From Pontiella desulfatans (GTDB lineage Bacteria; Verrucomicrobiota; Kiritimatiellia; Kiritimatiellales; Pontiellaceae): 64,000 bases of DNA. Made by a program: the position numbers and the translations under genes. The notes under the pieces were generated by a model. It was not told where the DNA came from, searched no databases, and worked only from the letters and a program-made list of their open reading frames with translations. The number at the start of each line of letters is the position of its first letter. Position 1 is the stretch's first letter. Shown in pieces: positions 26,832 to 46,839 of the stretch. Location: contig NZ_CAAHFG010000005.1 of the NCBI RefSeq assembly GCF_900890425.1, positions 124,001 to 188,000 on the forward strand. Direction: 5' to 3'.

Positions 26832-26852
26832 GCCGGATCAGGTTGAAGGGGA

Positions 26853-28079: not shown

Positions 28080-28096
28080 AGGAGCGCGGAGATAGG

Positions 28097-28837: not shown

Positions 28838-28946
28838 CTCCGGCTTCGGGAAGAATGGTTCAGGCGTATGACGACGTCCTGATTTTGATGCCGGGACTGA
28901 TGATCGCGACCGTTGATGGTCAGGAAGGTATAAAAAGGAAAAATTG

Positions 28947-30311: not shown

Positions 30312-30324
30312 AGGATTTCGTGCT

Positions 30325-33138
30325 GTGAAGAAACATACTGTAAATTATTCGATTATACTGGTCGCATTGCTCGGTCAGATGACCTTTGGAGAGGCTTTGC
30401 CTGAGACCGTTGTTCCGGAACCTCGAGACAACTGGTGGATGCAGCGCCATGAGGAAAAGCTTCGGGAAGTTGAACAGAAGAAAAATGAAATCGATCTGGT
30501 TTTGATCGGGGACTCGATTACCCATTTCATGGATGACCGCGCTCCGGGAATTATTCAGCAGACGTTTCCCGGTGTGACATACCTCAATCTGGGGTTCAGT
30601 GCCGACCGGACCGAGAATGTTCTCTGGCGTCTGCAGAACGGGGAAATTGAGGGATTATCGCCCAGGCTGACCATGATCATGATCGGCACCAACAATACCG
30701 GCCACCGCAACGATCCGGCGGAGGCGACGGTTGAGGGTATCCGGCTGATTGTTGAGGAGGTCTGCCGGCGGATGCCGCAGACCAAAGTACTGTTGCTCTC
30801 GGTCTTCCCGCGTGGCGCAACGCCGGACGATGGTCACCGAAAGCGGAATGAGGAAATCAACGATCTGCTTCCAACGCTGGCCGATAACCATACGGTGTTT
30901 CATCTGAGCATCAATGATGCATTTCTGGATGCGGAGGGCGGATTGTCCAACGAGATCATGCCCGATCTGCTGCATCCGAATGCCGCCGGTTATAAAGTCT
31001 GGATGGATGCGGTAAAACCGACGGTTGAGATGCTTCTTGCCGGTCAACCGAAGGTTCCGACTCCGCCCGAAATCTGGGCGGACTATAATCCGGACAAGGG
31101 GGACTTTAAGGAGGAGATCGTTTCCGAGAAAACACGGGATGGAATTTATACCCGCGAGTCGTATATCAGCGCATACGTCAATGGTGAGGAGATCCGCGTT
31201 TATTGTAAATATGCAGTGAAAGAGGGTGCTCGGAATGCGCCGGGTCTGATGGATGTGCACGGATGGATGGGCGCACCGAATCCGGATATGAGTTTTGTGA
31301 ATGATGGATGGGCGGTGCTATCGCACGGGTACTGCGGCAAAGTGAAAGGCAGGCCCCATTACACGAAATATCCTAAGAAACTTCTGCAAGGGAACATGGA
31401 CCGGGCTGAAGGGCCGCCCGTCTGGTCATACACCGAGGGCCGGGAGCCGATTACAGATTATCGCCAGACCTCCGATTATCTCTGGTATGCCATTCAGCGG
31501 CGTGCGCTCAGTTATCTGCTGTCGCAGAAAGAGGTGGATGCTTCCCGTATCGGTTCCAAAGGGTACTCCTATGGCGGGACGATTATGTGGAACCTGGGCA
31601 TGGATCCGCGCGTGAAAGCGACGGTGGCTTACTTCGGAATTGGCTGGAACGAATATTACCGCAGCAAACAGGTGTGGATGTACAACCAGCCATACCAGAC
31701 TCCGAAAATGGATGAGGGAGAAAAAATTTATCTGCCGACCATGGCGCCGCAGGCGCATGCGCCGTATATCACGGCGGCTACTCTTTGGCTGAACGGCTCG
31801 AACGATCATCACGGCGGGCACGAACGCAGTGAGTTAATGTTTAATCGTTTCAGCCCCGACGTGCCGTGGGATTTTGCGGTTCAGGCGCGCGGGCATCACA
31901 ATACAGAAAAGCTGGGCGACGGCTGCAAACTCTGGCTGGAAAAGCATGTGCTTGGCCGCGATCACTTCTGGCCGGAACGGCCGGAATCAGAAATCAGGCT
32001 GGGTGCAGGCGGTGTGCCCGAACTCCACCTAACCCCGTCAAATCCGGACCGGATCAAGGAACTTCAGATTGTTCAGTGCCTGAAGATGGCCAATAACATT
32101 GAGCGCTACTGGCGTGATGTGAAGCCGGTGCGTAAAGGCAATACCTGGATTGCCAAGCTGCCGGTGATGAATGTGGATGAATATGTATTCTCGTATGCCA
32201 GCATCCGCTACGACAATGAATGTGTTGTTTCATCCGACTTTGAAGCCGTGATCCCGTCACAAATAGGGGATGCCTTGGCCACAGATAAAAAAGCGGATGA
32301 ACTTCCCGGCGGAGCTGATCGGTGGAGCCATGCTGCTCCCGCTGAAGGAATCGGCGGGATCACAGGGTTTCGCCCCATCGATAATCGGAGAGGCACGAAA
32401 AGCGAGCAGTTTTCTGATCCGAAATGGAGAGCCCCGGCCGATGCGGATTTGTCATTTAAGTTCTACTGTACGCAACCGCAAACACTGATTCTTACTGCAA
32501 ACGGCCGGTTTGCGATGGATGTTGAAATTACCGCATCGGACGAGTGGCAGAGCATGACGATCCATGCCGGACAGTTGATGAACCCGGAGGGGGTTGTGCT
32601 GGGAAATTGGTCGGACGTCAAAAATGTCGGGTTTAAACCCAAAGCCGGCTCGGATATCACCAAGGTGGTCTTTGCTGATTTTCAATGGAAGGCCTCTTCG
32701 GGAAAAGTGCCGGAAGTGAATGCAGACGGCAGGGCCTACCTGGACCAGGCGGCCGCTGTTTACTGTGAAAGCCACTGGCGCGTCATGGATGACAAGGGGG
32801 TTGAAGGGAAACCTCTCAGCATATCCGGTACGACCTATGAACGTGGTTTAGGCGTTCACTCCAATTCAGAAATCAAATATTCATTAAACGGATTATTTTC
32901 CACCTTTTATGTGATTCCGGGGCCGGACGATGCCCATCATGGCCTGCTTGAGATGACAATCCTCGTCGATGGAAGAGCGCTTTATTCCTCCGGAAAAGTG
33001 CGCTCCACCACCTTCGAAGCAAAGCCGTTGGAGATTCCGGTGCAAGGCGCCGGAGAACTGACCTTGGTGGTCACAGACGGCGGCGATGGTCAGGGCGGTG
33101 ATCATGCAAGCTGGGCGGATGCATATCTCATGAAATGA
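30325..33138 (+). CDS. secreted SGNH esterase - acetyl-xylan-esterase-like hydrolase fusion with NPCBM domain
   Basis: I choose the GTG at 30325, giving 937 residues, because it follows AAGGATTTC and yields a clean signal peptide (VKKHTVNYSIILVALLGQ). Longer starts would overlap the previous gene. Residues about 30-245 form an SGNH hydrolase (GDSITHFM, MIGTNN, DLLHPN). Residues about 255-640 form an alpha/beta hydrolase of acetyl-xylan-esterase type with the elbow GYSYGG near 414. A jelly-roll-like region and a C-terminal NPCBM domain (GLGVHSNS, GPDDAHHG, DHASWADAYL) follow; the NPCBM is a close relative of that ending the 22950 protein. Two esterase mechanisms on one binding chain imply a substrate with more than one ester position. 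Confidence 0.87.
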   Translation: MKKHTVNYSIILVALLGQMTFGEALPETVVPEPRDNWWMQRHEEKLREVEQKKNEIDLVLIGDSITHFMDDRAPGIIQQTFPGVTYLNLGFSADRTENVLWRLQNGEIEGLSPRLTMIMIGTNNTGHRNDPAEATVEGIRLIVEEVCRRMPQTKVLLLSVFPRGATPDDGHRKRNEEINDLLPTLADNHTVFHLSINDAFLDAEGGLSNEIMPDLLHPNAAGYKVWMDAVKPTVEMLLAGQPKVPTPPEIWADYNPDKGDFKEEIVSEKTRDGIYTRESYISAYVNGEEIRVYCKYAVKEGARNAPGLMDVHGWMGAPNPDMSFVNDGWAVLSHGYCGKVKGRPHYTKYPKKLLQGNMDRAEGPPVWSYTEGREPITDYRQTSDYLWYAIQRRALSYLLSQKEVDASRIGSKGYSYGGTIMWNLGMDPRVKATVAYFGIGWNEYYRSKQVWMYNQPYQTPKMDEGEKIYLPTMAPQAHAPYITAATLWLNGSNDHHGGHERSELMFNRFSPDVPWDFAVQARGHHNTEKLGDGCKLWLEKHVLGRDHFWPERPESEIRLGAGGVPELHLTPSNPDRIKELQIVQCLKMANNIERYWRDVKPVRKGNTWIAKLPVMNVDEYVFSYASIRYDNECVVSSDFEAVIPSQIGDALATDKKADELPGGADRWSHAAPAEGIGGITGFRPIDNRRGTKSEQFSDPKWRAPADADLSFKFYCTQPQTLILTANGRFAMDVEITASDEWQSMTIHAGQLMNPEGVVLGNWSDVKNVGFKPKAGSDITKVVFADFQWKASSGKVPEVNADGRAYLDQAAAVYCESHWRVMDDKGVEGKPLSISGTTYERGLGVHSNSEIKYSLNGLFSTFYVIPGPDDAHHGLLEMTILVDGRALYSSGKVRSTTFEAKPLEIPVQGAGELTLVVTDGGDGQGGDHASWADAYLMK

Positions 33139-33202
33139 GTCAGACTGGTGCGGTCATGGACATGCGAAGTATCCAGGTTTCCTGAAGTCAGCCCGTAAAA
33201 CC

Positions 33203-33355
33203 ATGTTTGCATGTGTCAGTCAATACAATGCGAAATCCTGCCTGCGAAAACTCGGACAACCACATGCCCTCTACCGAACTGTGGATATACACAGTCGCAT
33301 TTTTCAGTACATTGATGAGCATCATGAAGTGGGAAGGTTCGAAAGCTGGACCTGA
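33203..33355 (+). pseudogene. short ORF, remnant homologous to 532-627
   Basis: The 50-codon frame runs from ATG at 33203 to TGA and contains LYRTVDIHSRIFQYIDEHHE. It aligns without gaps to the remnant at 532-627. There is no clear ribosome site. It occupies the 258-bp gap before the 33397 gene. The family is unrecognised; I treat it as a decayed fragment, though a conserved small protein cannot be excluded. Confidence 0.4.
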
Positions 33356-33396
33356 CCGGGACAGCAATGCTTAAGCATGAAAACAAGGAGAGTAAA

Positions 33397-36300
33397 ATGA
33401 GGAGAACAGGAATACTGGCCGGAGCGCTTTTATTGGCCGTTGTAGCCAATGCGGCAACCGTTACCTTCATCGGGACCAATGGCGCTGCATGGAATGTTGA
33501 TGGTAATTGGTCGGATGGTGTTGTGCCGGATGCTTCTGACACCGCTCAAATTAACAGCGGTTCAATTGTGAATTTTGATTACGGCAGCGGATGGCCCGCT
33601 GCCAATGCAATAGCTGTCAATGTCGACGGCACGGTGACGGCAGCTAATCCCGTGCGCTCCTGGGCGACGGTATGGAACTTTGGCTCAACAGCTACGCTCG
33701 ACGGCGCTACCTGGTTGACGCTCCAGGGCGGTGGTTCGGCATTTTTGTTTGATTCCGGTGCGACCTTGACGAACATCACCGGATCGATGGAACTTAATGG
33801 TAACGCAGACGTAACCCTCGGGTTCAATCTCGATGCCGGAGGTTTTCAGCAGTTGACTGCCTCAACGCTGCAAATTAACGGTTATGTCGGTCAGACCATT
33901 CTGGTGGATATGGCCGCGTATACCGGTCCGACTCAAAACATACCACTGATCGAGTTTACCAATCCCGGAGGCTCCCCGACGGTTACGGCTGCTCAATTTC
34001 AGACCTTAAACCTGATCGTTACTAATAACGGTGGTTATCCCGCCAGTCTGGTTTGGGATGAAGAGGATGACTCGATTGTTCTTGATATGGGTGTCATTGA
34101 TTACGATATCACCTGGGACGGCGAAGCCGGTGATAGTCTTTGGGCCAGCGCATCCAACTGGACGGGCAATACGCTGCCTTCAAATGGAGATATAATCGGT
34201 ATCGATGACGCAACGGTTGAGGCCATCGAGTTTCTCCCAGGCCAGAGCATGATTTATTTGAACGGAACATCGACGCTGACCGGTGGGCTGGTGCGCGCAC
34301 AGGGCTCAACCTTCTATGTTGGTTCTCAGGCCGTGCTGACGGGCGGATTCTGGGACTTTGACAACGGTTCCGCGGTTTTCGAAGACGGTGCATCCGTTAC
34401 CATGAGCCAATGGGAATTTAAAAACGACAACCACTTAAACTTTAACTTGAGTGCGTCTGGATTCAGCACGCTGACCCCGGGCAGTCTTGTGGGTTCCGGT
34501 ACCATTAACAGCAATGATGCTTTCATGGTCGATATGGCCGACTTTACCGGCCCTGCCCAGAACCTGACACTGGTCGACTTTTCGAACGGCGGCGGGTTGA
34601 CTGATGTTCAGTTCCAGACGGCAAACCTGATCGTTACCAATGAGGGTAGTTATGAAGCTAACCTGATCTGGGATGAATCAACCGCTTCAATCAAGCTCGA
34701 TATGGGCGTTGTTGAATACGATGTCACCTGGGACGGCGAAGCCGGTGACGACCTCTGGTCGAATGCAACCAACTGGACCGGCGATACACTCCCTACAGCC
34801 GGAGAGGTTATCGGGATTGATGGATCGAACGTAACCTGGGATGTATTAGCCGCCAGTGGCAACCTGCCCGCCAGCTGTGAACTTCATCTGACCGGTGCAG
34901 CAATCCTGAATTTGACCACGACGCTGCGAGCAAACAATTCAACGGTTTATGTCGGGTCATCCGCATCCCTGACCGGTTCGGGCGCATTTGTTGCGGAGTC
35001 CGGAAATTTCATATTTGAAGCCGGTTCTACAGTGAATCTGTCCGGGAACAGTTTTATGGGCAGCGGAGCCGGATTAACTTTCAATCTAAACATCGGCGGC
35101 TTCACAACCCTTCAGGCGGGAAATCTGTTTTTGAACGGTTCCGCAGCGAATATCAGCAACTCCACCTTTATTGTCGATATGGAAGACTTCGACGGGGCCC
35201 CGCAAAATATTTCGCTGATCGATTTCAGTGCGGGCGCTGAAGGCGGCAGCCTTACGGATGCCCAGTTCCAGACCGCTGCGCTGATGGTCACTAACGACAG
35301 CGGCTATGGCGCCAGCCTGGTTTGGGATGAAGCAGAGGATCGGATCATCCTCGATATGAATGCGGTTGCGTATGACGTTGCATGGGACGGCGAAGGCATC
35401 GGAGACTTCTGGTCGAACCCGACCAACTGGACGGGCGATACCCTGCCGGGCAGCGGTGACGTTATCGGCATTCATAACGCATCCGTTGACTGGGATTCTA
35501 ATGCCGGTAGCGATAACCTGCCTTTCGCCTGCGAGATTCATTTGACCGGAACCTCGGAGTTGGAATCAACGGCAACCCTTCGTATGGCCAATTCGACGAT
35601 TAATGTGGGCGCAAATGCAACGATCACCGGCTCAGGGTTCTGGGACTGCGATGACGGGACATTCGTGTTTGAAGACGGTGCGGCCGCCACGATGAACTTC
35701 TTTGAATTCAAGGATGCCAACAGCCTCACCTTCAATCTGGGGGCATCCGGCTTTACGACGCTGACGCCGGGCAATCTGTTTGGAGCCGCGAACATTGGCG
35801 GCGATGATACCTTCACGGTTGACATGGCTGACTATACCGGCGGAACCCAAGCCATCACATTGATGGACTTTTCCAACGGTGGAGGTCTGACGGACACCCA
35901 GTTCCAGACTGCGAACCTGGTGATAACGAATGAAGGCAGCTATACTGCCGACCTTGAGTGGGATGCGGGGACGGCTTCCATTATACTGGAGGTGTTAGAC
36001 GGTGATCCGGCTCCGGTTGCTGATGATCAGACGGTCTATATCTCCGGCTCTTCAGTGGCCATTACGCTGACGGCGACCGATCCCGAAGGCGATCCGCTGT
36101 CGTGGGCCATCGTAGATGCTCCGGCCTTCGGAAGTCTTTCGGGTACGGCCCCGGATCTGACTTACACACCGACCGGCGCGACGGTGGCGGACAGCTTTAC
36201 CTTTACGGCATTTGATGGCTCCAGCCTGTCCAACACCGGAACGGTAACGATTCTGCCTACGGTACAATTTATAGAGAGTGGTTCTGCTCCGAATACAGAT

Positions 36301-37095
36301 GTACTGGTCAGCGTGCTGCCCGGTTCGCCCGGAGTAAATCCGGAAGCTCCGTTGCTCTGGAGTACCGGAGATGCCGGCTTGGGTCAATCCTTCCGCTTCG
36401 CATCTGACACGACGTTGAATGCCATCACCATTCAGAAATTTGGAGATGCCTCCTTTGACAGCGATGAGCATGTGCTGAAACTGTGGATCGGTGAATATGA
36501 TACGGATGATTCAATCGATGAGGGCTACCCGGCCACGACGCATTCGGTGGGTGCAACCCTGCATACCCAATATATCGACCTGTCGGGGCAGAACTTTACC
36601 AGTAACAACTATTACACCATCACATTGTCCTCGGGCGTCAGCCTGAGTGCCGATGTGGAATATGGGTTCGAGCTAGCCTTTACTGCACAGGATACGGACA
36701 ACCGTTTTGATCTGGTTAAATACTATGACCCGGCGGGCACCGGTGACGGTATATACGCGGGCGGTATGACGCTGTACCAGGCCAACATTACCGGAACACT
36801 CCCGTTTGTATCGTTGATTGATGAAGCGTGGAATGATCTGGCGTTTGTGTTGCAGGGGACCTCTGCCGGCGGAGCGGATCCGATCGGTGATATTTCGCTG
36901 GGCGGACTTGTTGCAGGCGATCTGGTCTTCTCATGGGCCACGTCCCTTGGCCAAACGTATAACGTCGAAACCAATGCCGACCTGACCACCTCGAACTGGG
37001 GCATACTGGAAACGGTTATCGGCGATGGTGGAACGGTTACGGTGACCAATACCCCCGGACTGTCTGAGTTGTTCTATAAAATAACGTCTCCGTAA
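33397..37095 (+). CDS. secreted modular beta-rich protein with four repeat modules and cadherin-like domain
   Basis: The start is the ATG at 33397, which follows AACAAGGAGAGTAAA; an upstream in-frame ATG lacks a site. The protein has 1232 residues, with a signal peptide (RRTGILAGALLLAVVANA). Four repeat modules occupy about residues 12-880, with linkers such as IVLDMGVIDYDITWDGEAG joining one to the next. A cadherin/Big-like domain (about 890-970, ATDPEGDPLSWAIV) and a beta-sandwich of about 180 residues containing LGQSFRFASDTTLNAITIQ follow; the latter resembles domains found next to anchoring tails. It ends with a divergent form of the shared C-terminal domain. No catalytic site is visible. 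A strong terminator ends the unit. Confidence 0.85.
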   Translation: MRRTGILAGALLLAVVANAATVTFIGTNGAAWNVDGNWSDGVVPDASDTAQINSGSIVNFDYGSGWPAANAIAVNVDGTVTAANPVRSWATVWNFGSTATLDGATWLTLQGGGSAFLFDSGATLTNITGSMELNGNADVTLGFNLDAGGFQQLTASTLQINGYVGQTILVDMAAYTGPTQNIPLIEFTNPGGSPTVTAAQFQTLNLIVTNNGGYPASLVWDEEDDSIVLDMGVIDYDITWDGEAGDSLWASASNWTGNTLPSNGDIIGIDDATVEAIEFLPGQSMIYLNGTSTLTGGLVRAQGSTFYVGSQAVLTGGFWDFDNGSAVFEDGASVTMSQWEFKNDNHLNFNLSASGFSTLTPGSLVGSGTINSNDAFMVDMADFTGPAQNLTLVDFSNGGGLTDVQFQTANLIVTNEGSYEANLIWDESTASIKLDMGVVEYDVTWDGEAGDDLWSNATNWTGDTLPTAGEVIGIDGSNVTWDVLAASGNLPASCELHLTGAAILNLTTTLRANNSTVYVGSSASLTGSGAFVAESGNFIFEAGSTVNLSGNSFMGSGAGLTFNLNIGGFTTLQAGNLFLNGSAANISNSTFIVDMEDFDGAPQNISLIDFSAGAEGGSLTDAQFQTAALMVTNDSGYGASLVWDEAEDRIILDMNAVAYDVAWDGEGIGDFWSNPTNWTGDTLPGSGDVIGIHNASVDWDSNAGSDNLPFACEIHLTGTSELESTATLRMANSTINVGANATITGSGFWDCDDGTFVFEDGAAATMNFFEFKDANSLTFNLGASGFTTLTPGNLFGAANIGGDDTFTVDMADYTGGTQAITLMDFSNGGGLTDTQFQTANLVITNEGSYTADLEWDAGTASIILEVLDGDPAPVADDQTVYISGSSVAITLTATDPEGDPLSWAIVDAPAFGSLSGTAPDLTYTPTGATVADSFTFTAFDGSSLSNTGTVTILPTVQFIESGSAPNTDVLVSVLPGSPGVNPEAPLLWSTGDAGLGQSFRFASDTTLNAITIQKFGDASFDSDEHVLKLWIGEYDTDDSIDEGYPATTHSVGATLHTQYIDLSGQNFTSNNYYTITLSSGVSLSADVEYGFELAFTAQDTDNRFDLVKYYDPAGTGDGIYAGGMTLYQANITGTLPFVSLIDEAWNDLAFVLQGTSAGGADPIGDISLGGLVAGDLVFSWATSLGQTYNVETNADLTTSNWGILETVIGDGGTVTVTNTPGLSELFYKITSP

Positions 37096-37124
37096 GCAGA
37101 ATTTACTGACCGGATACATGCAGG

Positions 37125-37156
37125 CGTGCCCGTGTTAAATGCGCGGGCACGTTTTT
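37125..37156 (+). terminator. intrinsic terminator ending the esterase locus
   Basis: CGTGCCCG (37125-37132) pairs perfectly with CGGGCACG (37144-37151), followed by five T residues. It lies 30 bp after the stop of the 33397 gene. Confidence 0.9.
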
Positions 37157-37286
37157 CTTGTGCGACAACAGCAGGAGGGTAACCCGCTTTTAGGCCTCCC
37201 TCAAATGTGGGATGGCGCAGCACGGAATCCCATCTATGATGATCTAAATTCTGAAAAGTTTCCGGCCGCTGTTACTGGAGTTAGAT

Positions 37287-37364
37287 ATGAAGAAAAAAAC
37301 GGGTAAAATAAACAAAGGCGCACCAAGCGGATTTGTAATCCGTTGGTCGTCAGTTCGACTCTGA
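37287..37364 (+). pseudogene. gene start interrupted by an integration junction
   Basis: ATG at 37287 has a good GGAG site six bases upstream and encodes MKKKTGKINKGAPSGFVI. It then runs into tRNA-derived sequence and stops at TGA (37362-37364). From memory, K-rich starts followed by KGAPSGFVIS and a hydrophobic segment open a protein family widespread in Kiritimatiellota and relatives. The frame loses that family at exactly the GGATTTGTAATC shared with a tRNA-Thr anticodon arm. I therefore read it as the 5' stump of a gene split by an integrated element. The rest is not in the window. Confidence 0.55.
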
Positions 37365-37376
37365 CCGCCGGCTCCA
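37327..37376 (+). tRNA. 3' half of tRNA-Thr (anticodon TGT), attachment-site remnant
   Basis: An anticodon arm (stem GCGGA/TCCGT with one wobble, loop TTTGTAA, anticodon TGT) is followed by a 5-base variable region. A perfect T-arm (GTCAG, loop TTCGACT, CTGAC), the acceptor 3' strand CGCCGGC, T and CCA complete it. The D-arm and the 5' acceptor strand (expected GCCGGCG) are absent, so this is not a functional tRNA. Such 3' halves are left at element ends by tyrosine integrases that recombine in the anticodon arm. Confidence 0.72.
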
Positions 37377-37380
37377 TCTT

Positions 37381-37419
37381 AAAGGCCTCGTAATTAGCAA
37401 GTTACGAGGCCTTTCTTTT
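37381..37419 (+). terminator. strong terminator-like hairpin after the tRNA fragment
   Basis: A perfect 13-bp stem (AAAGGCCTCGTAA with TTACGAGGCCTTT) around an 8-base loop is followed by CTTTTT. It sits 5 bp after the CCA end, where a tRNA terminator is expected, so it probably travelled with the tRNA 3' end. Confidence 0.85.
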
Positions 37420-37572
37420 TGTCTGTGTCGAGCCGCAGTTAGTGCAATAACGGCATGAAATGCAACCAAAAGACGGTAGTACGTTGCATTTGAGGTTGCA
37501 TTTGGATTTCCTTATTCTGGTTCGCTGATCCTCCGATTTGTGGTAACGGTATGAGATCAAGGGAGAGCGTCT

Positions 37573-38715
37573 GTGTCTGAAAACTATATTCGGAAATGTG
37601 CTGCAAGAGTTCTTACGTACAAGGATCTTGCGGCAAAATATGCCAGTGAGGATCTGGTTCTGAGCCCGGGCAAAAAGACAATCGATCAGGTCTTCAGGGA
37701 GATTGAGATATCGTTGACGAAGCCCCGCCTTCCGTGGGATGCCGACGAGGTATTCGAAGAACTGGAACAATTGCTTCAGTATTCTTCGTATGACTGGAAC
37801 AAAGAGGTCGAAATCTATGTCAGGAGCATTTTCCCCTCTGTCCTGCCAGCGTGTCCCGAAGGTGATGAGGAAGGTGTTCAGGCCGCACTCTCAGTCGGTG
37901 TAGACAGGGCTTTTACTCTGGCGAAGCAAATGGTCCAGCTTGACTACATCTTCAAGAAGTCTCCGAAGAAGTGGAGGGAGTGGAATTTGTTGACGCCCAC
38001 GGCCTATAATACAGCCGCCACAGAGAACGCGGTCCGGTCTCTCATAGAAGGCCATGGTGAATACCTTCTGCCGTTTTGTGATGGAAAGGGAAATCTCTTT
38101 GCACCTTCGTACAATGAGTTGCTTGGTTATATGGATTTCGAGTTGTCGGAAAATGCTTCCGATGTACATCTGAAGAAAGAGGCGTTGTCCAAGGCGGTCT
38201 CTGTTTTTCAGGAATACGGACTGTATAGCATCCGGCTGGGAGAAAATCCGGGATGGGATCGGGACTTTTTCAGATTTGAGCGCCCTGATCTTATTGATGG
38301 CCGTTCTGTTGTTGGAGTAACCGGGACTGTGCGGATTGTTATGCCATCAGGATACGCCGGGGTCGGATTGAAGAATCATTTTCCGCATGAAGCCTACAGG
38401 GTCGTATGTGCCCAGGTGAATGCAGTGACCGGCATCGAAAAGGCCGCGACAAAACCCGGGAAGCTTTCAGACGAGCAGTTGCTAGAAGTTGTTAGTATTG
38501 CTTTCCGTTCTTTGGAGGGAGCTGGCAGCAAGCTTCGGAAATCACAGGTAATAAAAGAACTGGACGCTGTGTCCAACGCAAAGTGGCGGAAGACGGTGTC
38601 TTCATCGTCTATCCCCGAGGTCAGGACGAGACAGTATTGCGTACGGTTAAGGCGGATCGATGTTCGGTATGAGCAGGCTTTCAGAGCCTGGTTATCCCAG
38701 CTTAAGCATGGCTGA
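37573..38715 (+). CDS. hypothetical protein of the mobile island
   Basis: The product has 380 residues starting at GTG (37573) after AAGGGAGAG. It appears soluble, with no signal peptide or membrane segment. The N-terminal 130 residues are helical and acidic. A middle part around 215-300 reads like a beta-rich core (RSVVGVTGTVRIVMPSGYAGVGL). A possible helix-turn-helix lies at SKLRKSQVIKELDAVSNA near 315-332. I do not recognise the family. As the first gene inside the island, next to the attachment junction and an excisionase-like ORF, it could be an element maintenance or regulatory protein; that is inference only. It is not a recognisable integrase: the R-H-R-Y pattern was not found. Confidence 0.75.
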   Translation: MSENYIRKCAARVLTYKDLAAKYASEDLVLSPGKKTIDQVFREIEISLTKPRLPWDADEVFEELEQLLQYSSYDWNKEVEIYVRSIFPSVLPACPEGDEEGVQAALSVGVDRAFTLAKQMVQLDYIFKKSPKKWREWNLLTPTAYNTAATENAVRSLIEGHGEYLLPFCDGKGNLFAPSYNELLGYMDFELSENASDVHLKKEALSKAVSVFQEYGLYSIRLGENPGWDRDFFRFERPDLIDGRSVVGVTGTVRIVMPSGYAGVGLKNHFPHEAYRVVCAQVNAVTGIEKAATKPGKLSDEQLLEVVSIAFRSLEGAGSKLRKSQVIKELDAVSNAKWRKTVSSSSIPEVRTRQYCVRLRRIDVRYEQAFRAWLSQLKHG

Positions 38716-38830
38716 TACATCTGTGATGGTGTCTATTCCGTTGTGCGCTAAAATATGCATAACAGTGCCGGTATAGTGTGAATCTGCATGTAATTGAAAT
38801 GCCGGTCACAGCCCCTATTGTCCTTCATCA

Positions 38831-38849
38831 GTTGAACACGGTGTTCAAC
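38831..38849. promoter_or_regulatory. perfect 19-bp operator-like palindrome
   Basis: GTTGAACAC-G-GTGTTCAAC is a perfect 9+1+9 palindrome centred 32 bp upstream of the ATG of the 41-codon helix-turn-helix ORF. Position and symmetry suggest a dimeric repressor site controlling that gene. Confidence 0.6.
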
Positions 38850-38871
38850 GTAACCCAGAAAGGACAAAGGA

Positions 38872-38997
38872 ATGAAAATAGAACCCAAGTATCTAAAAAC
38901 GGCATCGCTCGCAAAGATGTTGAATTTATCCCCCAGGTACATTCGGAAACTCGTAGCGGATGGGAGGCTTCCCTATACTCCTGATATTTCTCATTAA
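38872..38997 (+). CDS. small excisionase/AlpA-like helix-turn-helix protein
   Basis: This ORF of 41 residues starts at ATG 38872 behind AAAGGACAAAGGA and ends in TAA. The sequence TASLAKMLNLSPRYIRKLVA followed by DGRLP is a classic MerR/excisionase-type helix-turn-helix plus the start of its wing. Such proteins direct integrase toward excision or regulate mobile-element genes. Full Xis/AlpA proteins are usually 55-75 residues, so this one may be C-terminally shortened; the stop lies soon after the wing. The perfect palindrome just upstream and terminator 39090-39120 frame it as its own small transcription unit inside the island. Confidence 0.65.
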   Translation: MKIEPKYLKTASLAKMLNLSPRYIRKLVADGRLPYTPDISH

Positions 38998-39089
38998 CGG
39001 GATAAAAGAGGTCTGGTGGGGTTAAAACTGCCGAATTTATCGGAATAAATAATAGATGGGGACGGTTGGTCAAACAACTGTCCTGAACA

Positions 39090-39120
39090 GGTCGCCTGAT
39101 GCCATCGGGCGGCCTTTTTT
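39090..39120 (+). terminator. intrinsic terminator
   Basis: An 11-bp stem (GGTCGCCTGAT with ATCGGGCGGCC, two G-T wobbles) and a 3-base loop are followed by six T residues. It lies 28 bp before the next start codon. Its GG.CG.C..GGGCGGCC core recurs at 40561 and 43169. Confidence 0.85.
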
Positions 39121-39147
39121 ATGAAATAACCACGAAGGAGAATTACA

Positions 39148-39555
39148 ATGCTTACTTTGAATATATCACACTCTAAAAAGGTGCCCGCTGATGTCGACTT
39201 CAGCAGTAAAAGTTATTCCGTAGCCCTCTCTGTTGAGCTTCCGAACAATATGTCGGCGCAAGAACTAAAGGCTGAAATGCACCGGCGTTATGCCGAACTT
39301 GAAATAGCTGTTGATGAACAGATCACGGGCAAAGTAACCCGCAGAACGCAAGAGAGAAGACCTCAATCCAAAAAGGATTCCGCCAGCGAAAAACAATTAG
39401 TCTATTTAATGGATCTAGCGAAGGCTCGTAACGTGTCTCCGCAGCAACTTGACGCCCTAATTCAACAACGGGTCGGAGTAGAGTCAGCGTTGATGTTAGA
39501 CCGCAAAAGTTGCAGTTTGATGATAGACCAAATGCAGCAATATAAGGCTGCATAG
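39148..39555 (+). CDS. hypothetical mobile-element protein
   Basis: The product has 135 residues with an ATG behind CGAAGGAG. The first 60 residues look like a small alpha/beta domain (YSVALSVELPNNMSAQELKAE). After a basic hinge (TRRTQERRPQSKKD) the C-terminal 50 residues read SEKQLVYLMDLAKARNV...SCSLMIDQM. This K-Q-x-x-Y-L-x-x-L-A...L-I-D pattern is a small helical domain frequent at the ends of plasmid and ICE accessory proteins, where it may bind nucleic acid. No function is known to me. Its own terminator-like hairpin upstream and a roughly 500-bp untranslated stretch downstream suggest independent transcription. Confidence 0.72.
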   Translation: MLTLNISHSKKVPADVDFSSKSYSVALSVELPNNMSAQELKAEMHRRYAELEIAVDEQITGKVTRRTQERRPQSKKDSASEKQLVYLMDLAKARNVSPQQLDALIQQRVGVESALMLDRKSCSLMIDQMQQYKAA

Positions 39556-39678
39556 AACACTTGTGATAACAGCCTCAATGCCTACAGGACGAGAGGCTCT
39601 TGTCACATAATCCATGCACATATTGAATATGCTAAAGTTGGTTCTCGAGGAACAAGAATTCTGGATTTGAAAAAATCC

Positions 39679-39724
39679 AAGTCCACGAATCTCTGTTTTT
39701 TTCGGGCACGAGTGGGCTTTTTTT
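39679..39724 (+). terminator. possible terminator with long loop
   Basis: AAGTCCAC (39679-39686) can pair with GTGGGCTT (39712-39719, one G-T), followed by five more T residues. The 25-base loop makes it weaker than the other terminators here. Confidence 0.45.
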
Positions 39725-39832
39725 GTAACGAGGGACCGCGAATGCAATTGATTTGGAGCCGTTTATTGTCTCAATGGTCTCTGAATTGTCCTGAAAGTCC
39801 ATCGGTTGACCGTCATTTTAACCAATGGGAAT

Positions 39833-39874
39833 GGGGCTAAACTCGAGTTTCTTAGGGAATTGGTGTTTAGCCCC
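39833..39874. repeat. 10-bp perfect inverted repeat
   Basis: GGGGCTAAAC (39833-39842) and GTTTAGCCCC (39865-39874) are perfect complements 22 bases apart. The palindrome AAACTCGAGTTT overlaps the left arm, allowing an alternative fold. There is no T-run. Confidence 0.5.
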
Positions 39875-40050
39875 CTTTCAGGTCATCCTCCGGAATCCGA
39901 AAATCAGAACCCGAACTCAGAATCTGAAAATGGGTTTATGCTAAAAGTTAGCATGCTGGCCATGTAATTTGCCTTACACATCATCACGATTCACTCCTGT
40001 GATCAGGCTATCTCCACACCGATTTCATTAAACACATAAAGGAGATTCAT

Positions 40051-40491
40051 ATGATCATGCAATTAACGACGGAATTAGCCGTAAAAGAGGATCGAGAACC
40101 GGGGCCGAAGATCACTAAGCCTGCTGATGCGGCGGAATATCTGAAAGATCTTCGCCTCAGCCTGCTCCAGCAGGAAACATTTATTTGCGTAACATTGGAT
40201 TGTAAAAGCCAGATCATCGATCGCCATATTATTTCGATCGGGGTTCTGGACAGCACGCTGGTGTCACCGAGAGAATTATACCGGGTGGCAATCAACGATT
40301 CGGCCAAGAGTATTCTGGTGGCCCATAATCATCCAAGTGGCGACTTAGCCCCTTCAGCCCAGGACCTTCAGGTGACGAAGAAGCTGATCGAGGCGGGGAG
40401 GATTATGGAAATCGCACTGCTAGATCACCTTATAATTGCAGCGGGAGATGACCACCTAAGCCTGAAGGAATCTGGTCTGGTCAAGTTCTAG
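40051..40491 (+). CDS. radC: RadC-family JAB/MPN-domain protein
   Basis: The product has 146 residues. The JAMM metal-binding signature is intact: HNHPSGDLAPSAQD near 92-105, plus the usual RadC context (FICVTLDCKSQIID, SPRELYRVAI). It lacks the N-terminal helix-hairpin-helix part of chromosomal RadC, which is typical for the short RadC/YeeS-like proteins of genomic islands, plasmids and ICEs. The biochemical role is not established; it is commonly found beside antirestriction genes, as here with ardC downstream. ATG follows AAAGGAGATTCAT; a second ATG two codons on is possible. The next 30 bases after the stop contain two operator-like palindromes. Confidence 0.9.
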   Translation: MIMQLTTELAVKEDREPGPKITKPADAAEYLKDLRLSLLQQETFICVTLDCKSQIIDRHIISIGVLDSTLVSPRELYRVAINDSAKSILVAHNHPSGDLAPSAQDLQVTKKLIEAGRIMEIALLDHLIIAAGDDHLSLKESGLVKF

Positions 40492-40497
40492 TTCAGC

Positions 40498-40516
40498 TTT
40501 GGAACACTGTTCCAAA
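40498..40516. promoter_or_regulatory. perfect 19-bp palindrome, first of a pair
   Basis: TTTGGAACA-C-TGTTCCAAA is perfectly symmetric. It lies 7 bp after the radC stop and about 230 bp before ardC, with a second site 12 bp downstream. The GAAC...GTTC core resembles some LexA-type and repressor operators. Confidence 0.58.
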
Positions 40517-40528
40517 ACAAGTCAGACT

Positions 40529-40546
40529 TTTGGAACGCGTTCCAAA
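40529..40546. promoter_or_regulatory. perfect 18-bp palindrome, second of a pair
   Basis: TTTGGAACGCGTTCCAAA is a perfect palindrome and shares the TTTGGAAC half-site with the copy at 40498. The centres are about 30 bp apart, roughly three helical turns, which would favour cooperative binding on one DNA face. Confidence 0.58.
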
Positions 40547-40560
40547 GTTTGTCACACTGC

Positions 40561-40590
40561 AAGGGTCGTCCATCCGGGCGGCCCTTTACC
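40561..40590 (+). terminator. terminator-like hairpin downstream of radC
   Basis: An 11-bp stem (AAGGGTCGTCC with GGGCGGCCCTT, two wobbles) closes a 4-base loop; the T-run is interrupted (TTTACCCTTTT). It has the same core as the terminators at 39090 and 43169. Confidence 0.55.
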
Positions 40591-40607
40591 CTTTTCCGCC
40601 AAGCGCC
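40582..40607 (+). repeat. imperfect direct repeat, upstream copy (flanks ardC)
   Basis: The segment CCCTTTACC-CTTTTCCGCCAAGCGCC recurs as CCCTTATTC-ATTTCCGCCAAGCGCC at 41741-41765, sharing an identical 14-base TTCCGCCAAGCGCC core. Together the copies bracket the ardC gene. Confidence 0.5.
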
Positions 40608-40691
40608 AGACGCTGGAGGCAGACGCCAGGCGTCAGGAAACACGAAGACGGCACGCCCTGTGTGGGGCGGTCGGAGACTAACAACGAACCA

Positions 40692-40731
40692 GCAACAAGC
40701 CACCTCCCCGTTGTGGGAGGTGGCTTGTTGC
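40692..40731 (+). promoter_or_regulatory. very strong 17-bp hairpin just upstream of ardC
   Basis: GCAACAAGCCACCTCCC pairs perfectly with GGGAGGTGGCTTGTTGC around CGTTGT. It ends 18 bp before the ardC start codon. No T-run follows, so it is not a standard terminator. The 3' arm carries a GGGAGG Shine-Dalgarno-like core that the hairpin would bury, so translational control or a processing site is possible. Confidence 0.6.
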
Positions 40732-40749
40732 GTATGGAGATAAGTAAGT

Positions 40750-41676
40750 ATGAATGGAAGAGATAAAATTAATCAGCTCATCACACAACGGATGATAGAT
40801 CGCATAACCGAGATCGGTGAGCTGCCATGGCACAAGCCGTGGACCTCGGTGTCGATGATGCCGCGAAATCTGGTCAGCAAAAAGAACTACCGTGGCGTGA
40901 ACGTCTTCCTTCTCCATATGATGGGGTTCACTTCGCAATGGTGGCTAACGCTCAAGCAGGTAAACGCCCTTGGCGGAAAAATCAGAACGGGGGAGAAGGG
41001 CTCGCCTGTGGTTTTTTTTAAGATCGTGGAGCCGAGGGGTGATGCCGTTGGCAGTGACGGCAAGTCTAAGTCTTTCGCGATGCTGCGCTATTATCGAGTA
41101 TGGAACACTGACCAGTGCGAAGGGCTTGATGGCAAGGTGCCAGTGGTGGAAGTGCCGAAGCGGGTGCATACACCCATTGAGAACGCCGAAGCCGTTATCC
41201 GCAACATGCCGTGCCCGCCGCGTGTTGCACATGGCCGGAGGCAGGCATCGTACTGCCCGCCGACCGACACGGTCAGTATGCCGTCACCGGAAACATTCGT
41301 CAGTGGAGAGAGTTATTTTTCAGCCCTCCTTCACGAATGTGTTCATGCCACCGGGGCAGCGAAGAGATTGGCCCGTAAAGCCATCATGGAGCCTAACCGG
41401 TTCGGAAGTGACCCGTATGCCAAAGAAGAGCTTGTTGCTGAACTTGGCGCAGCTTTCCTCTGCGGGCACTGCGGTATCTTGCCGAAGACCGAGGAGAACT
41501 CTGCTGCCTATCTGAAAGGTTGGTTAGCGAGGTTGAAGGCTGAGCCTTCGATGCTGATCACCGCCGGTAGTCAGGCTCAAAAAGCCTATGACTATGTATT
41601 GGGTAACCTAGAAATCAAAGCACCCGCTGCTGAACCGGTTGCTGAGGGCGTAGTGGCTGAGAAGCTTGCCGCGTGA
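40750..41676 (+). CDS. ardC: ArdC-type antirestriction protein with zincin metallopeptidase domain
   Basis: The product has 308 residues. Residues 1-130 are an ArdC N-terminal domain (INQLITQRMIDRITEIGELP, then LHMMGFTSQWWLTLKQV and GEKGSPVVFFKIVE), which in relatives binds single-stranded DNA. Residues about 135-300 are the associated metallopeptidase-like domain with the zinc motif H-E-C-V-H followed by ATGAAKRLAR, and a downstream acidic residue in KEELVAELGAAFL. ArdC proteins protect incoming conjugative DNA from restriction enzymes of the recipient. This fits the RadC neighbour and island setting. ATG follows ATGGAGATAAGTAAGT. Translation may be influenced by the hairpin at 40692-40731. 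Confidence 0.9.
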   Translation: MNGRDKINQLITQRMIDRITEIGELPWHKPWTSVSMMPRNLVSKKNYRGVNVFLLHMMGFTSQWWLTLKQVNALGGKIRTGEKGSPVVFFKIVEPRGDAVGSDGKSKSFAMLRYYRVWNTDQCEGLDGKVPVVEVPKRVHTPIENAEAVIRNMPCPPRVAHGRRQASYCPPTDTVSMPSPETFVSGESYFSALLHECVHATGAAKRLARKAIMEPNRFGSDPYAKEELVAELGAAFLCGHCGILPKTEENSAAYLKGWLARLKAEPSMLITAGSQAQKAYDYVLGNLEIKAPAAEPVAEGVVAEKLAA

Positions 41677-41740
41677 AGGCCTGATCACCACACCGCGAAC
41701 CTCCGCACCCTGAACACAGGCCATTGCCGTATTCGGGGTG

Positions 41741-41765
41741 CCCTTATTCATTTCCGCCAAGCGCC
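41741..41765 (+). repeat. imperfect direct repeat, downstream copy (flanks ardC)
   Basis: This is the partner of 40582-40607, sharing TTCCGCCAAGCGCC. It lies between the ardC stop and the IS3 element. Confidence 0.5.
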
Positions 41766-41870
41766 TGACTGTGCGCCTACCCCCAATCTTAAACCACGGA
41801 TCGGTGAACTTAAGGTGGAACCTGCGGTTCCCTGTTCCGTGTTCTGGCGGCCAACGAGCCGCCCTTCCAT

Positions 41871-41945
41871 GATGCCGTCGCGGAGCGGAGCCCGTCCCCG
41901 AAGGGGCGGCCCGGAGGGCCGAGGGCGGAGCGCAGCGACGGCATC
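41871..41945. repeat. inverted repeat inside the IS, downstream of the transposase
   Basis: GATGCCGTCGC (41871-41881) and GCGACGGCATC (41935-41945) are perfect 11-bp complements around a GC-rich centre that itself folds (CCCC-GAAG-GGGC). It lies between the transposase stop and the IS end and may block read-through or shape the end. Confidence 0.55.
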
Positions 41946-41953
41946 ACTTGCGA

Positions 41954-42799
41954 TCATGTTCTGACTGCTCCTTCCATGAATACCTCGGCGGGGGTGCGTT
42001 TGTCCAGAGCGCTGTGCTTCCTCTCGTGGTTGTAATATTTAAAATAGCTGTCAAGGCCCCGATGCAACGCATGCCCGTCGGCATAGCATGCGGGATAGAT
42101 TTTCTCATACTTCACCGACCACCACAGTCGTTCGATGAATACGTTGTCCAACGCCCGGCCTCGCCCGTCCATGCTGATGGTGATGTTCTCGTTTAACAGG
42201 ACACCGGTGAAGGCGTTCGAGGTGAACTGGCTTCCTTGGTCGGTGTTGAATATCTCCGGATTCCCCTGCGTCAGCGCACGCTCCAGCGCATCAACGCAGA
42301 ACGTGCTCTCCATGGTGCTTGAGAGCTCCCAGGCGAGCACATAGCGGCTGTACCAGTCGATTACGGCGGTCAGGTACATGTATCCATGCCGCATCGGGAT
42401 GTAGGTGATGTCCGTACTCCAAACCTGGTTCACCCGTTCGATGTCCACATTGCGCAGCAAATAAGGGTAGATCTTGTGCCTCGGGGCGGGCTTGCTCGTG
42501 TGCGGACCGGGCGTGATGGCCTGAATCCCCATCAGCTGCATGAGGCGGGCGACCCGCTTGTGATTGACATCATAGTCTTGATCACGCAACCAGTCCGTCA
42601 TGCGTGGATAGCCGAACTCCGGATGCCGGAGATACTGCTCGTCGATCAAACGCATCAGAAGCAGGTTCTCCGGCGTTTCCGGGGCGGGGTCGTAGTAGAA
42701 GCCCGATCTGGGGACGCCTGCGAGCCTACACTGCCGCCGAACCGAATAATCGGTGCCGGGCTCCACCCAGCTGCGGCGCGTTGAAAGCGGCAGGCTCAT
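41954..42799 (-). CDS. IS3-family transposase OrfB (DDE catalytic part)
   Basis: OrfB has 281 residues from its own ATG at 42799. In life it is mainly produced as an OrfAB fusion by -1 frameshifting at A-AAA-AAG. The catalytic triad context is present: STDITYIP (first Asp), NTDQGSQF (second Asp) and DNVFIERLWWSVKYE (Glu). An HTH_21-like segment (HPEFGYPRMTDWLRD...VNHKRVARLMQ) precedes it. The C-terminus NHERKHSALDKRTPAEVF is typical of IS3-group integrase-core transposases. The longer open frame back to 42946 is the frameshifted overlap with OrfA, not a separate start. Confidence 0.92.
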   Translation of the reverse strand: MSLPLSTRRSWVEPGTDYSVRRQCRLAGVPRSGFYYDPAPETPENLLLMRLIDEQYLRHPEFGYPRMTDWLRDQDYDVNHKRVARLMQLMGIQAITPGPHTSKPAPRHKIYPYLLRNVDIERVNQVWSTDITYIPMRHGYMYLTAVIDWYSRYVLAWELSSTMESTFCVDALERALTQGNPEIFNTDQGSQFTSNAFTGVLLNENITISMDGRGRALDNVFIERLWWSVKYEKIYPACYADGHALHRGLDSYFKYYNHERKHSALDKRTPAEVFMEGAVRT

Positions 42800-43080
42800 A
42801 GCTTTTTTTCGAGCCACTTCACGTCCATCTTCAGACGCCCGATCTCTTCGTAAAGTGGAGCCGTAAGCTCTTCTTCCGTTTGAGCCTGCTTCTTTTTCCC
42901 CGATGCAAAAAGATCCGGCGCATTCGAAAGCAACTGCTTCTTCCAATCCGAAATCTGGTTCGGATGGACCTGATATTCCGATGCCAGCTCCGCCAATGTC
43001 TTCACGCCCTTGATGGCCTCAATCGCCACCTTGGCCTTGAACTTGTCCGTGAATGTTCTTCGTTTTCTTCCCATTTCCAT
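42796..43080 (-). CDS. IS3-family transposase OrfA (helix-turn-helix)
   Basis: OrfA has 94 residues. It begins MEMGRKRRTFTDKFKAKVA and contains the HTH_Tnp_1 pattern TLAELASEYQVHPNQISDWKKQ. It ends with a leucine-zipper-like coiled coil (LYEEIGRLKMDVKWLEKKL) used for transposase multimerisation. The final codons GAA-AAA-AAG contain the slippery heptamer, so a fraction of ribosomes shift into OrfB. OrfA alone normally acts as a DNA-binding regulator of transposition. Confidence 0.92.
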   Translation of the reverse strand: MEMGRKRRTFTDKFKAKVAIEAIKGVKTLAELASEYQVHPNQISDWKKQLLSNAPDLFASGKKKQAQTEEELTAPLYEEIGRLKMDVKWLEKKL

Positions 43081-43168
43081 GCGTCCTTTTGTACCATGTT
43101 GAGGACGCAGGTTCCACTTAAGCCGGTGGTCCGAAAATCGGGGTTAAGCGCACTGGCACGAAGAAGCT

Positions 43169-43203
43169 GGGGCCGTCCTGCATACAGCAGGGCGGCCCCT
43201 TTT
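43169..43203 (+). terminator. strong intrinsic terminator
   Basis: A 13-bp stem (GGGGCCGTCCTGC with GCAGGGCGGCCCC, one wobble), 5-base loop and TTTT. It lies 33 bp upstream of the 43237 start codon and shares the GG.CGTCC...GGGCGGCC core with 40561 and 39090. Confidence 0.88.
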
Positions 43204-43236
43204 AATTTAACAACTAAACAAACAAGGAGAATAACA

Positions 43237-43548
43237 ATGAGTGAAGCAACCATAGAACAAAGCCCATCCAGTGGCATGCGAGCCTTCTGCATGGGTAAAA
43301 TCGTGTCGACACCGGGTGCGTTGGCGGCTCTTGAATCTGCAGGACATAACGCCAGTGAATTCCTTGTCCGCCATGCTTTGGGCGACTGGGGAGACTTGGT
43401 CGAAGAGGACAAGGTCAGCAATGACGAAGCCGTGGCAGATGATCTCCGCATTCTGTCGGCATACCGTCTGCAGGATGGAGTTCGTATCTGGGTAATAACG
43501 GAAGCGGACCGGTCTGCAACGACCATCTTGCTTCCGAGCGAATACTGA
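43237..43548 (+). CDS. small conserved mobile-element protein
   Basis: The product has 103 residues from the ATG behind AACAAGGAGAATAACA. The segments IVSTPGALAALESAG, FLVRHALGDWGDLVEEDK and WVITEADRSATTILLP match a small protein very common on plasmids and ICEs of Proteobacteria. It is often labelled hypothetical or, wrongly, as a type I restriction subunit. Its function is unknown; it is usually encoded with antirestriction and single-strand DNA-handling genes. The open frame extends far upstream through the IS, but that part is fortuitous. It forms an operon with the next gene (10 bp gap). Confidence 0.85.
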   Translation: MSEATIEQSPSSGMRAFCMGKIVSTPGALAALESAGHNASEFLVRHALGDWGDLVEEDKVSNDEAVADDLRILSAYRLQDGVRIWVITEADRSATTILLPSEY

Positions 43549-43558
43549 GGAGAGAGTC

Positions 43559-44623
43559 ATGTATGAAGAAGATGAATTCGGAGAATATGATGACTATCCC
43601 CCGCAGCAACATCGACCATCTCGTCGCCGATTGTGCTTTCCCCTCCAATGGAAACTCGCTGTGGCGGCTGCGGTGGTGTTCGTGCTGGTCTCACTGCGTT
43701 TTTGCAGTGGAGGTCGCCAGGAGCCAGATACGGAGCTTCCGCGCAAGCAAACGGTTCGCGTGGTATCTATGAGTGAGATCGATCTTCGTGTCAGGGCCGC
43801 AGCAGTTTCCGCAAGGGATAAAGCTGCGCGCCATGCAGAGGAATCGGTCCGGCATTGGGTTGACGGCCTGCGCCGTCGCAATGTCGAATTCTGTGACTGG
43901 TATTTCAGTTACCTTACAGCCAACTCGCTTGAGTTGCGTGCGCTGGGATACCATCTGGCAGATACGGTACTTGTTGAAGCCATTGCCGGACAGCAACCGA
44001 CAGCGGAAGAGCGTCTGGAGGATGTGGTAAGTGAGGCGTATGCCGCACGGGTTCTTCATCCCTCAAGCGCTCAGCTTAAAGTTGAGAGTATTTGCCGTGT
44101 GAGCGTGGAGTTTTACCTCCAGTCCCTGAGTCAGCAGTTATCAGGGCTGGAGGCTGAGTTCGAGATTGCGCAGGCCGATTGGCCGCAGTACCTCGAAGGG
44201 CTGTCGAGATTAACACTGTCGATTGAGAATGGAAGACAGGTGCCTGTCGTCACTAAAGCGGTGATGGCTGGCAGCGGTATTGCCGTGGCCAAGGCCGTAA
44301 AGGTCGGAAGCGGGCAACTCCGGAGTCTGGTGGTTAAGGCCGGTGGTGACAGGTTGCTGGCCGGAGGCGCACGTGTTGGCGGTAAGTTTGTGAAAGGTGC
44401 GGGTTGGTGGCTGGCCATCGGTTTGACTGCGGCTGATCTCATTGACCATAGGCACACCGTCAGCGTTAACCGTCCGGTCCTTGAACGCAGCCTGAACGAA
44501 TATCTCGATGAGTTGGTCCAGTTAACTCTGTATGACTCGCAAACAGGCATCGTGCCTGTTATCGACGGTGTTCAGCGCGATGTTCTCAGCCGGATCGAAA
44601 CTGAAGACAAAAGCGAGAGGTAA
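43559..44623 (+). CDS. hypothetical membrane-anchored protein of the island
   Basis: The product has 354 residues. An acidic and basic N-terminal tail precedes one transmembrane helix (about 31-48, KLAVAAAVVFVLVSLRF), then a long helical soluble domain. Near 230-280 the sequence is glycine/alanine-rich with a second hydrophobic patch (GAGWWLAIGLTAADLI), possibly a second membrane contact. No enzyme motif is visible. The topology resembles small envelope proteins of mobile elements, but I cannot name a family. ATG lies behind GAGGAGAGAG. The gene ends 4 bp before the clamp-like gene, so the three genes 43237-45260 are one operon. Confidence 0.75.
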   Translation: MYEEDEFGEYDDYPPQQHRPSRRRLCFPLQWKLAVAAAVVFVLVSLRFCSGGRQEPDTELPRKQTVRVVSMSEIDLRVRAAAVSARDKAARHAEESVRHWVDGLRRRNVEFCDWYFSYLTANSLELRALGYHLADTVLVEAIAGQQPTAEERLEDVVSEAYAARVLHPSSAQLKVESICRVSVEFYLQSLSQQLSGLEAEFEIAQADWPQYLEGLSRLTLSIENGRQVPVVTKAVMAGSGIAVAKAVKVGSGQLRSLVVKAGGDRLLAGGARVGGKFVKGAGWWLAIGLTAADLIDHRHTVSVNRPVLERSLNEYLDELVQLTLYDSQTGIVPVIDGVQRDVLSRIETEDKSER

Positions 44624-44627
44624 TAAA

Positions 44628-45260
44628 GTGAAAGCAATAGAACTGAAAAATGGAGATCGGGGTGATCCCGATTTCCACCGCATGCGCTCTTTGCTTGCGT
44701 GTGTCGGAAAAGACAAGATGCGGCCGGAACTCCATTATATCCTCGTTGAAAAGACGAAGGCCGGGGTTTATGCGGTTGGATGCGACGGTCTCCGCCTGCG
44801 TCGGGACCTGTTCCGGATCAAGGTGGAGCCAGGTCTGTATGAGATTAAGGTAAACAACAGCCGGGAGATCCGGCTTATGCCCAGTCCGATGAAGGTCCGC
44901 TATCCAGCATACCGGAAAATAATCCCGGGTCTGGAACCTGAGTCGACATACAGCGCCGTAGGCAAAAGCCCGCGGTTTGTCATGTGGATCGGTGCGGCGC
45001 TGGGTTGTTATGTTGACCCAAAGCTAGTACCTATTGCGCATGATGAATACGGCGAGATCCATATCCAGAAATTGGATGGTGAGATTATGCCCCTGGTATT
45101 CCGGAATGACCACACTCTGGTTGTGGTTATGCCAATGAAGCTGGATGGCCATATCGGGGAGCAACTGGATCGTATGCAACTAGACCGGTTGCGCCGACTG
45201 CGGAAGTGGCTAAATCCAGCACCAAAAAAGAACCCACCCCATGGTGGACAACGTTGGTAA
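44628..45260 (+). CDS. reduced DnaN-like (beta sliding clamp-like) protein
   Basis: I choose the GTG at 44628 (behind GAGAGG), giving 210 residues. Longer frames overlap the previous gene. Segments line up with the bacterial beta clamp: MRPELHYILVE then VGCDGLRLR (clamp: R-x-x-L-x-G-x-L-x-E and A-T-D-G-H-R-L-A), YPAYRKIIPG (clamp F-P-D-Y-R-R-V-I-P), and PLVFRNDHTLVVVMPMKL (clamp C-terminus ending Y-V-V-M-P-M-R-L). Normal DnaN has about 366 residues in three domains; here only clamp domains II-III seem represented, with internal deletions and an extra 35-residue basic tail. A role in element replication, or as a decoy or partner of the host replisome, is inferred. The similarity was judged by eye. 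Confidence 0.6.
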   Translation: MKAIELKNGDRGDPDFHRMRSLLACVGKDKMRPELHYILVEKTKAGVYAVGCDGLRLRRDLFRIKVEPGLYEIKVNNSREIRLMPSPMKVRYPAYRKIIPGLEPESTYSAVGKSPRFVMWIGAALGCYVDPKLVPIAHDEYGEIHIQKLDGEIMPLVFRNDHTLVVVMPMKLDGHIGEQLDRMQLDRLRRLRKWLNPAPKKNPPHGGQRW

Positions 45261-45394
45261 GGCGCAAGGCGGCCTAGGCCGCCGGGAAGAAGGCGGTGGA
45301 ATACCCATCCCTTCTTTTTTGCTGACGAAAAATGGGTTATGGGGTTGTGGGCACCCTAAGTTCAAATCCAACCGGGCTACCGGACTCGTTGCGA
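45261..45394. other. island/host boundary region with GC palindrome
   Basis: No gene is apparent. A perfect 16-bp palindrome GGCGGCCTAGGCCGCC lies at 45268-45283 and a T-run follows about 30 bp later. A stretch near 45359-45381 (AGTTCAAATCCAACCGGGCT) looks like a tRNA T-loop and acceptor 3' end, but its T-stem does not pair. This is the last sequence before typical host genes. Confidence 0.4.
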
Positions 45395-46825: not shown

Positions 46826-46839
46826 GTGGCTCCATTGCT

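Follow-up and report, generated by a model that had tools for sequence, protein, structure and literature searches.

Two related sulfatase-bearing islands in tandem at tRNA-Thr(TGT) in Pontiella desulfatans, the first apparently trimmed at a core copy within its own cargo

The stretch of DNA considered here (the window) is a 64,000-nucleotide section of the Pontiella desulfatans genome, C5:124001-188000 in an assembly of 8.66 Mb and six contigs; coordinates given without a contig name refer to the window. At 37329-37340, the start of a protein gene (MKKKTGKINKGAPS) runs into the anticodon arm and 3′ half of tRNA-Thr(TGT). The ATG at 37287 opens a reading frame of 25 amino acids (MKKKTGKINKGAPSGFVIRWSSVRL) whose stop codon ends at 37364. 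What survives of the gene, a cargo gene of the KGAPSGFV family whose remainder is deleted, is its 5′ end (37287..37340, plus strand). Its last 12 bp are a core, GGATTTGTAATC (37329..37340, plus strand), common to the cargo gene and the tRNA-Thr anticodon arm. The tRNA-Thr(TGT) 3′ half (37329..37376, plus strand) includes the CCA (37374-37376) and is followed by a terminator (37381..37420, plus strand) composed of a hairpin (37381-37414) and a T run. The terminator hairpin is strong, and the predicted fold of the junction stretch has a z of -4.6. No complete tRNA was detected in the window with ARAGORN and no match with Rfam, as expected since only half a tRNA is present there. The passage from gene start to tRNA half, CCA and terminator, as reported in a preliminary description of this DNA, is confirmed at the same coordinates.

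The 3′ half at the junction is identical to that of an intact tRNA-Thr(TGT) on the same contig (C5:90976-91050), a counterpart that the preliminary description had proposed to look for. The core GGATTTGTAATC occurs three times in the genome (C5:91003, 161329 and 221266), always on this one contig and on the plus strand, and all three copies are directly followed by the tRNA-Thr 3′ half. On their other side the three copies differ: the first adjoins the tRNA 5′ half, the second the start of the gene, and the third an integrase end that includes arm sites. By base composition, about 0.6 copies would be expected per genome, and about 0.002 in 70 kb. Because the 12-mer is found only three times and the same tRNA 3′ half follows each time, chance microhomology is judged an unlikely source of the junction.

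The gene start is genuine, since its N-terminus (MKKKTGKINKGAPSGFVI) matches that of a family represented many times in this genome. Members have a TonB-like N-terminus, and one full-length homologue contains an SHD1 domain. The exact GGATTTGTAATC is absent from the other family copies of this genome, and a genome-wide search for the missing 3′ part of the gene preceded by the core, suggested in the preliminary description, found no copy. In other genomes of the genus, three intact family genes do carry the exact core (G027:C4:54418, G013:C189:30450 and G016:C99:68759), in agreement with the earlier proposal that a protein gene with the same 12 bases had served as a secondary site. None of the three continues as a tRNA-like sequence beyond the 12 bases: the next two bases are AG in all three, versus CG in the tRNA. 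The stretch shared by gene and tRNA is thus limited to 12 bp, with the crossover inside it; this limit rests on relatives of the gene, since its own bases to the right of the core are lost. A degenerate motif search across 28 genomes returned 43 copies; the window's own aside, the exact 12-mer is present in three of 42, so it arises now and then through codon choice.

The junction lies within a longer arrangement, which begins with the tRNA 5′ half, continues with element A (70.3 kb) and then element B (59.9 kb), and closes with the displaced tRNA 3′ half. The intact tRNA-Thr stands 70 kb upstream of the junction, and the third core 60 kb downstream, where it comes after three arm-like sites beside a tyrosine integrase gene; the terminator beyond its tRNA 3′ half differs from the others. 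The intact tRNA and the displaced 3′ fragment have equal orientation, with the island DNA between them. The crossover falls in a known tRNA sublocation, the anticodon loop, and identity begins in the anticodon stem, as it also does in related elements in tRNA-Arg and tRNA-Lys. Over the first 188 bp from their left ends, A and B match at 89%, and within this stretch both have the same arrangement of ATGCAACC, GTTGCAT and GGTTGCAT. A backbone stretch of 2.0 kb is 84.5% identical at the DNA level, and the two elements have RadC-like, ArdC-like and several unclassified backbone genes in common, as well as sulfatase genes.

To the left of tRNA-Thr, the chromosomal flank is syntenic in five relatives, and beyond B the right flank has no synteny in the relatives compared, which together mark tRNA-Thr as a variable site. 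Right of B, C5:225458-239804 contains several large genes that do not lie beside the tRNA in most relatives; two of them have weak matches near the tRNA in G027. Another relative of the same genus has about 72 kb between two tRNA-Thr 3′ halves (G021:C2:1618316-1690516), with an ArdC-like gene, an integrase-like gene of 507 amino acids near one end and a backbone mostly unlike those of A and B. In a genome of the same family, locus L010 (G028:C181) has an extra tRNA-like 5′ half directly upstream of tRNA-Thr.

Element B (C5:161329-221265, 59.9 kb, plus strand; 37329..64000 in the window) is the element that the preliminary description placed to the right of the junction, an anticodon-arm tyrosine-integrase element bearing the tRNA 3′ half. 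This 3′ half forms the tRNA side of its attP, and the terminator next to it resembles that of A. The tyrosine integrase, likewise anticipated nearby, lies beyond the right edge of the window, at the right terminus of B (P0001, PF00589; C5:219833-221131, minus strand), accompanied by three arm sites and an HTH gene. B, and the array as a whole, thereby contains a cognate integrase. At the left end of B, three putative integrase arm sites (ATGCAACC, GTTGCAT and GGTTGCAT; 37460..37501), recognised by repetition only, are arranged as in A and in the tRNA-Lys and tRNA-Arg elements. A backbone gene of 380 amino acids and no family (37573..38715, plus strand) has homologues in the same place in the tRNA-Lys (83%) and tRNA-Arg (57%) elements. 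It is followed on the same strand by a RadC-like JAB-domain gene (40051..40491), homologous to genes in A (51%) and the tRNA-Lys element (45%), by an ArdC-like antirestriction gene (40750..41676) with homologues in the same two elements, and by two further backbone genes of 354 and 242 amino acids (43559..45260) that are 94% and 86% identical to genes of A and belong to the 2.0-kb stretch of 84.5% DNA identity. Besides sulfatases, the cargo of B includes a beta-galactosidase-type gene. An IS3-type transposase gene (rve, HTH_21; 41954-42946, minus strand) has 100% identical copies in the tRNA-Arg element, at the start of contig C3 and near C3:40 kb.

Two sister elements occupy other tRNA genes of this genome, one in tRNA-Lys(CTT) (C4:299511-362220, 62.7 kb) and one in tRNA-Arg(ACG) (C5:454258-456172, up to the contig end, and C3:1-41594). 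Since the latter leaves C5 at the contig end and finishes on C3, and an IS3 copy marks the break, the sequence suggests that C5 and C3 are neighbouring contigs. At their right ends, both sisters have an HTH gene close to an integrase that is 74-77% identical to P0001, the tRNA-Lys element also has a family-A DNA polymerase gene, and B and the sisters bear the same kind of cargo as A. Close relatives of P0001 adjoin 3′ halves of tRNA-Thr(TGT), tRNA-Arg(ACG), tRNA-Arg(CCT), tRNA-Lys(CTT) and tRNA-Phe(GAA), all of which begin in the anticodon arm. The best-matching integrases come from Kiritimatiellales/Pontiellaceae and one Lentisphaerae MAG.

To the left of the junction, too, the DNA belongs to an integrated element, one whose own right end is missing. 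Element A (C5:91003-161328, 70.3 kb, plus strand; 1..37328 in the window) starts at the intact tRNA-Thr, 33 kb left of the window. It carries sulfatase, glycosidase and esterase genes, secreted Ig-type proteins and a sodium:solute symporter, together with primase-like and PD-(D/E)XK genes; its last complete cargo gene encodes a 1242-amino-acid protein with a Big_9 Ig domain (33367..37095, plus strand). No homologue of the right-end integrase or of the 207-amino-acid HTH gene is found in A, and its last 1.7 kb contain no arm heptamers. Instead, A ends inside a cargo gene of a repeated family, whose start sits where the right module is expected. A gene start as the standard end of such an element can be rejected, because the right ends of B and the sisters bear integrase and arm sites. 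No relative with an undeleted A was found. The only tyrosine recombinases within A, none of them a cognate integrase, are three consecutive genes at C5:101259-104493, which resemble a recombinase-in-trio element and are located between two parts of the ArdC-like gene. The trio also occurs at C1:2745343, C1:3741525 and C2:610733, with equal scores.

These features do not fit the simplest account, offered in the preliminary description, in which a single element entered an ordinary host gene. At its far end (C5:221266), B meets the original 3′ half of tRNA-Thr, the core joined to the 3′ part of the gene exists nowhere in the genome, and the supposed host DNA is an island that starts at tRNA-Thr and lacks a right end; on these grounds a simple insertion is rejected. 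The site is very probably an internal junction between two related islands inserted in tandem in one tRNA-Thr(TGT), the first of which has lost its end at a pseudo-core. Each island carries a tRNA 3′ half, from the anticodon arm onwards, with a terminator on its left and, normally, a tyrosine integrase with arm sites on its right. Element A would have integrated and restored tRNA-Thr. A KGAPSGFVI-family gene among its cargo would have held GGATTTGTAATC, the recombination core of the islands, by chance. Recombination between this pseudo-core and a true att core at the right end of A would then have removed the remainder of the gene, the integrase and the arm sites, leaving the gene start joined to the core. 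B may have entered the resulting hybrid site of gene and tRNA 3′ half later, or may already have been the second member of the tandem. Overall, part of a tandem array has been deleted, and we infer that an integrase was responsible. As to the order of events, a deletion at the standard att site is moderately favoured; the end product is alike whether B was already behind A, came later or entered the gene first. A alone is predicted to be unable to excise. The 130-kb pair could, by prediction, be mobilized together by the integrase of B, since a normal attL (of A) and attR (of B) still flank it.

The last of these orders is a direct insertion, in which B entered the gene inside A as a secondary site, the kind of insertion that the preliminary description envisaged, and the remainder of the gene and of A was later removed by another event involving the right ends of both elements. 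It is a sub-scenario of the tandem array that differs in the order of events, and is a credible but clearly less likely course. An exact core can arise in this gene family, the homologous integrase genes at sister right ends (74-77%) could allow homologous recombination, and the end product would be the same. However, B would have needed an unusual site despite the standard att site at the end of A, the intermediate in which the core is joined to the 3′ part of the gene is absent from the genome, and no sequence trace distinguishes this course.

That the right end of A was lost independently of the integrase, by slippage or illegitimate recombination between 12-bp direct repeats, is improbable. 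An identity of 12 bp is enough for rare RecA-independent deletions, but the breakpoint coincides exactly with the integrase core instead of any other repeat, and the genome has no 12-mer of this kind beyond the three copies, with about 0.002 expected by chance in 70 kb. Still less probable is that a larger rearrangement placed ordinary chromosomal DNA next to B, on the left of the junction. Although the 37 kb of the window on that side hold mostly metabolic cargo rather than mobile-element genes, the tRNA-Thr core marks the precise start of the segment, which has a left end of the element type and backbone genes homologous to those of B and the tRNA-Lys element, and which carries the same type of cargo as B and the sisters. 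The least credible alternative is an assembly chimera of unrelated copies, for which three identical tRNA 3′ halves would be a natural spot, but the three junctions give a consistent array with matching ends, and a chimera would leave the core in such a gene unexplained when other genomes independently contain family genes with the core.

Tandem accretion of integrative elements with decayed, CIME-type members is described in a review that cites work on ICESt1 (PMC5704250). As there, two elements share one tRNA target, the resident lacks an integrase, the second sits in its att site, and the composite is in principle excisable as a unit. A CIME, however, is a decayed element without integrase that retains both attL and attR, whereas the right arm of A is gone, its attR lacks the left arm side, and it ends in an interrupted cargo gene that runs into the core. 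tRNA islands with anticodon-loop crossover are described in the Islander paper (PMC4383910; its reference 10, Williams 2002), and these likewise show a tyrosine integrase, a split in the anticodon arm, a tRNA restored by the 3′ half of the island, a displaced 3′ fragment at the far end and tandem arrays. In contrast to A, which has no cognate integrase, Islander accepts tandem members only with an integrase and a fragment each. Tandem accretion and anticodon-centred islands have both been described, so the present case adds an instructive example to a known class. SGI1 also combines a secondary attachment site with tandem copies made by one integrase family, but its target is protein-coding (PMC2297512); at the present locus a tRNA serves as primary target, and the element's own cargo contains the secondary site. 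Tycheposons are likewise large cargo islands bounded by tRNAs, with a tyrosine recombinase, nutrient-use genes and, in some members, replication-type genes such as primase, PolA and exonuclease (PMC10872708). They differ in that the cargo here consists of sulfatases and glycosidases and the host is of the Pontiella type (Kiritimatiellales). The tRNA border, tyrosine recombinase and large nutrient-related cargo are all present in the Pontiella islands, a likeness of layout. The original tycheposon work was reportedly done in Prochlorococcus. Assignment to the ICE or IME class finds no support in the two families searched, as neither PF03432 (relaxase) nor PF12696 (TraG-type) has a match in the whole genome.

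As a natural experiment, the junction narrows the crossover site of this integrase clade down to 12 bp within the anticodon arm. It also illustrates how an island can be cut short where a copy of the core occurs by chance inside its own cargo. Island finders that demand a separate integrase for every tandem member would misread A and B or fuse them into one. The locus also exposes a family of tRNA islands of roughly 40-70 kb with sulfatase loci in a marine bacterium for which 521 sulfatases have been reported (PMC7356697), in a text that does not contain the terms integrase, genomic island, mobile or horizontal. It may be, though this is a tentative proposal, that conjugation-free islands bearing replication genes move among anticodon arms in Pontiella and its relatives, pile up there, and trade sulfatase cargo at chance cores, that is, anticodon-like sequences inside conserved cargo genes at which cargo is gained or shed. 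If so, part of the very large sulfatase repertoire would have been built through recombination at such chance cores.
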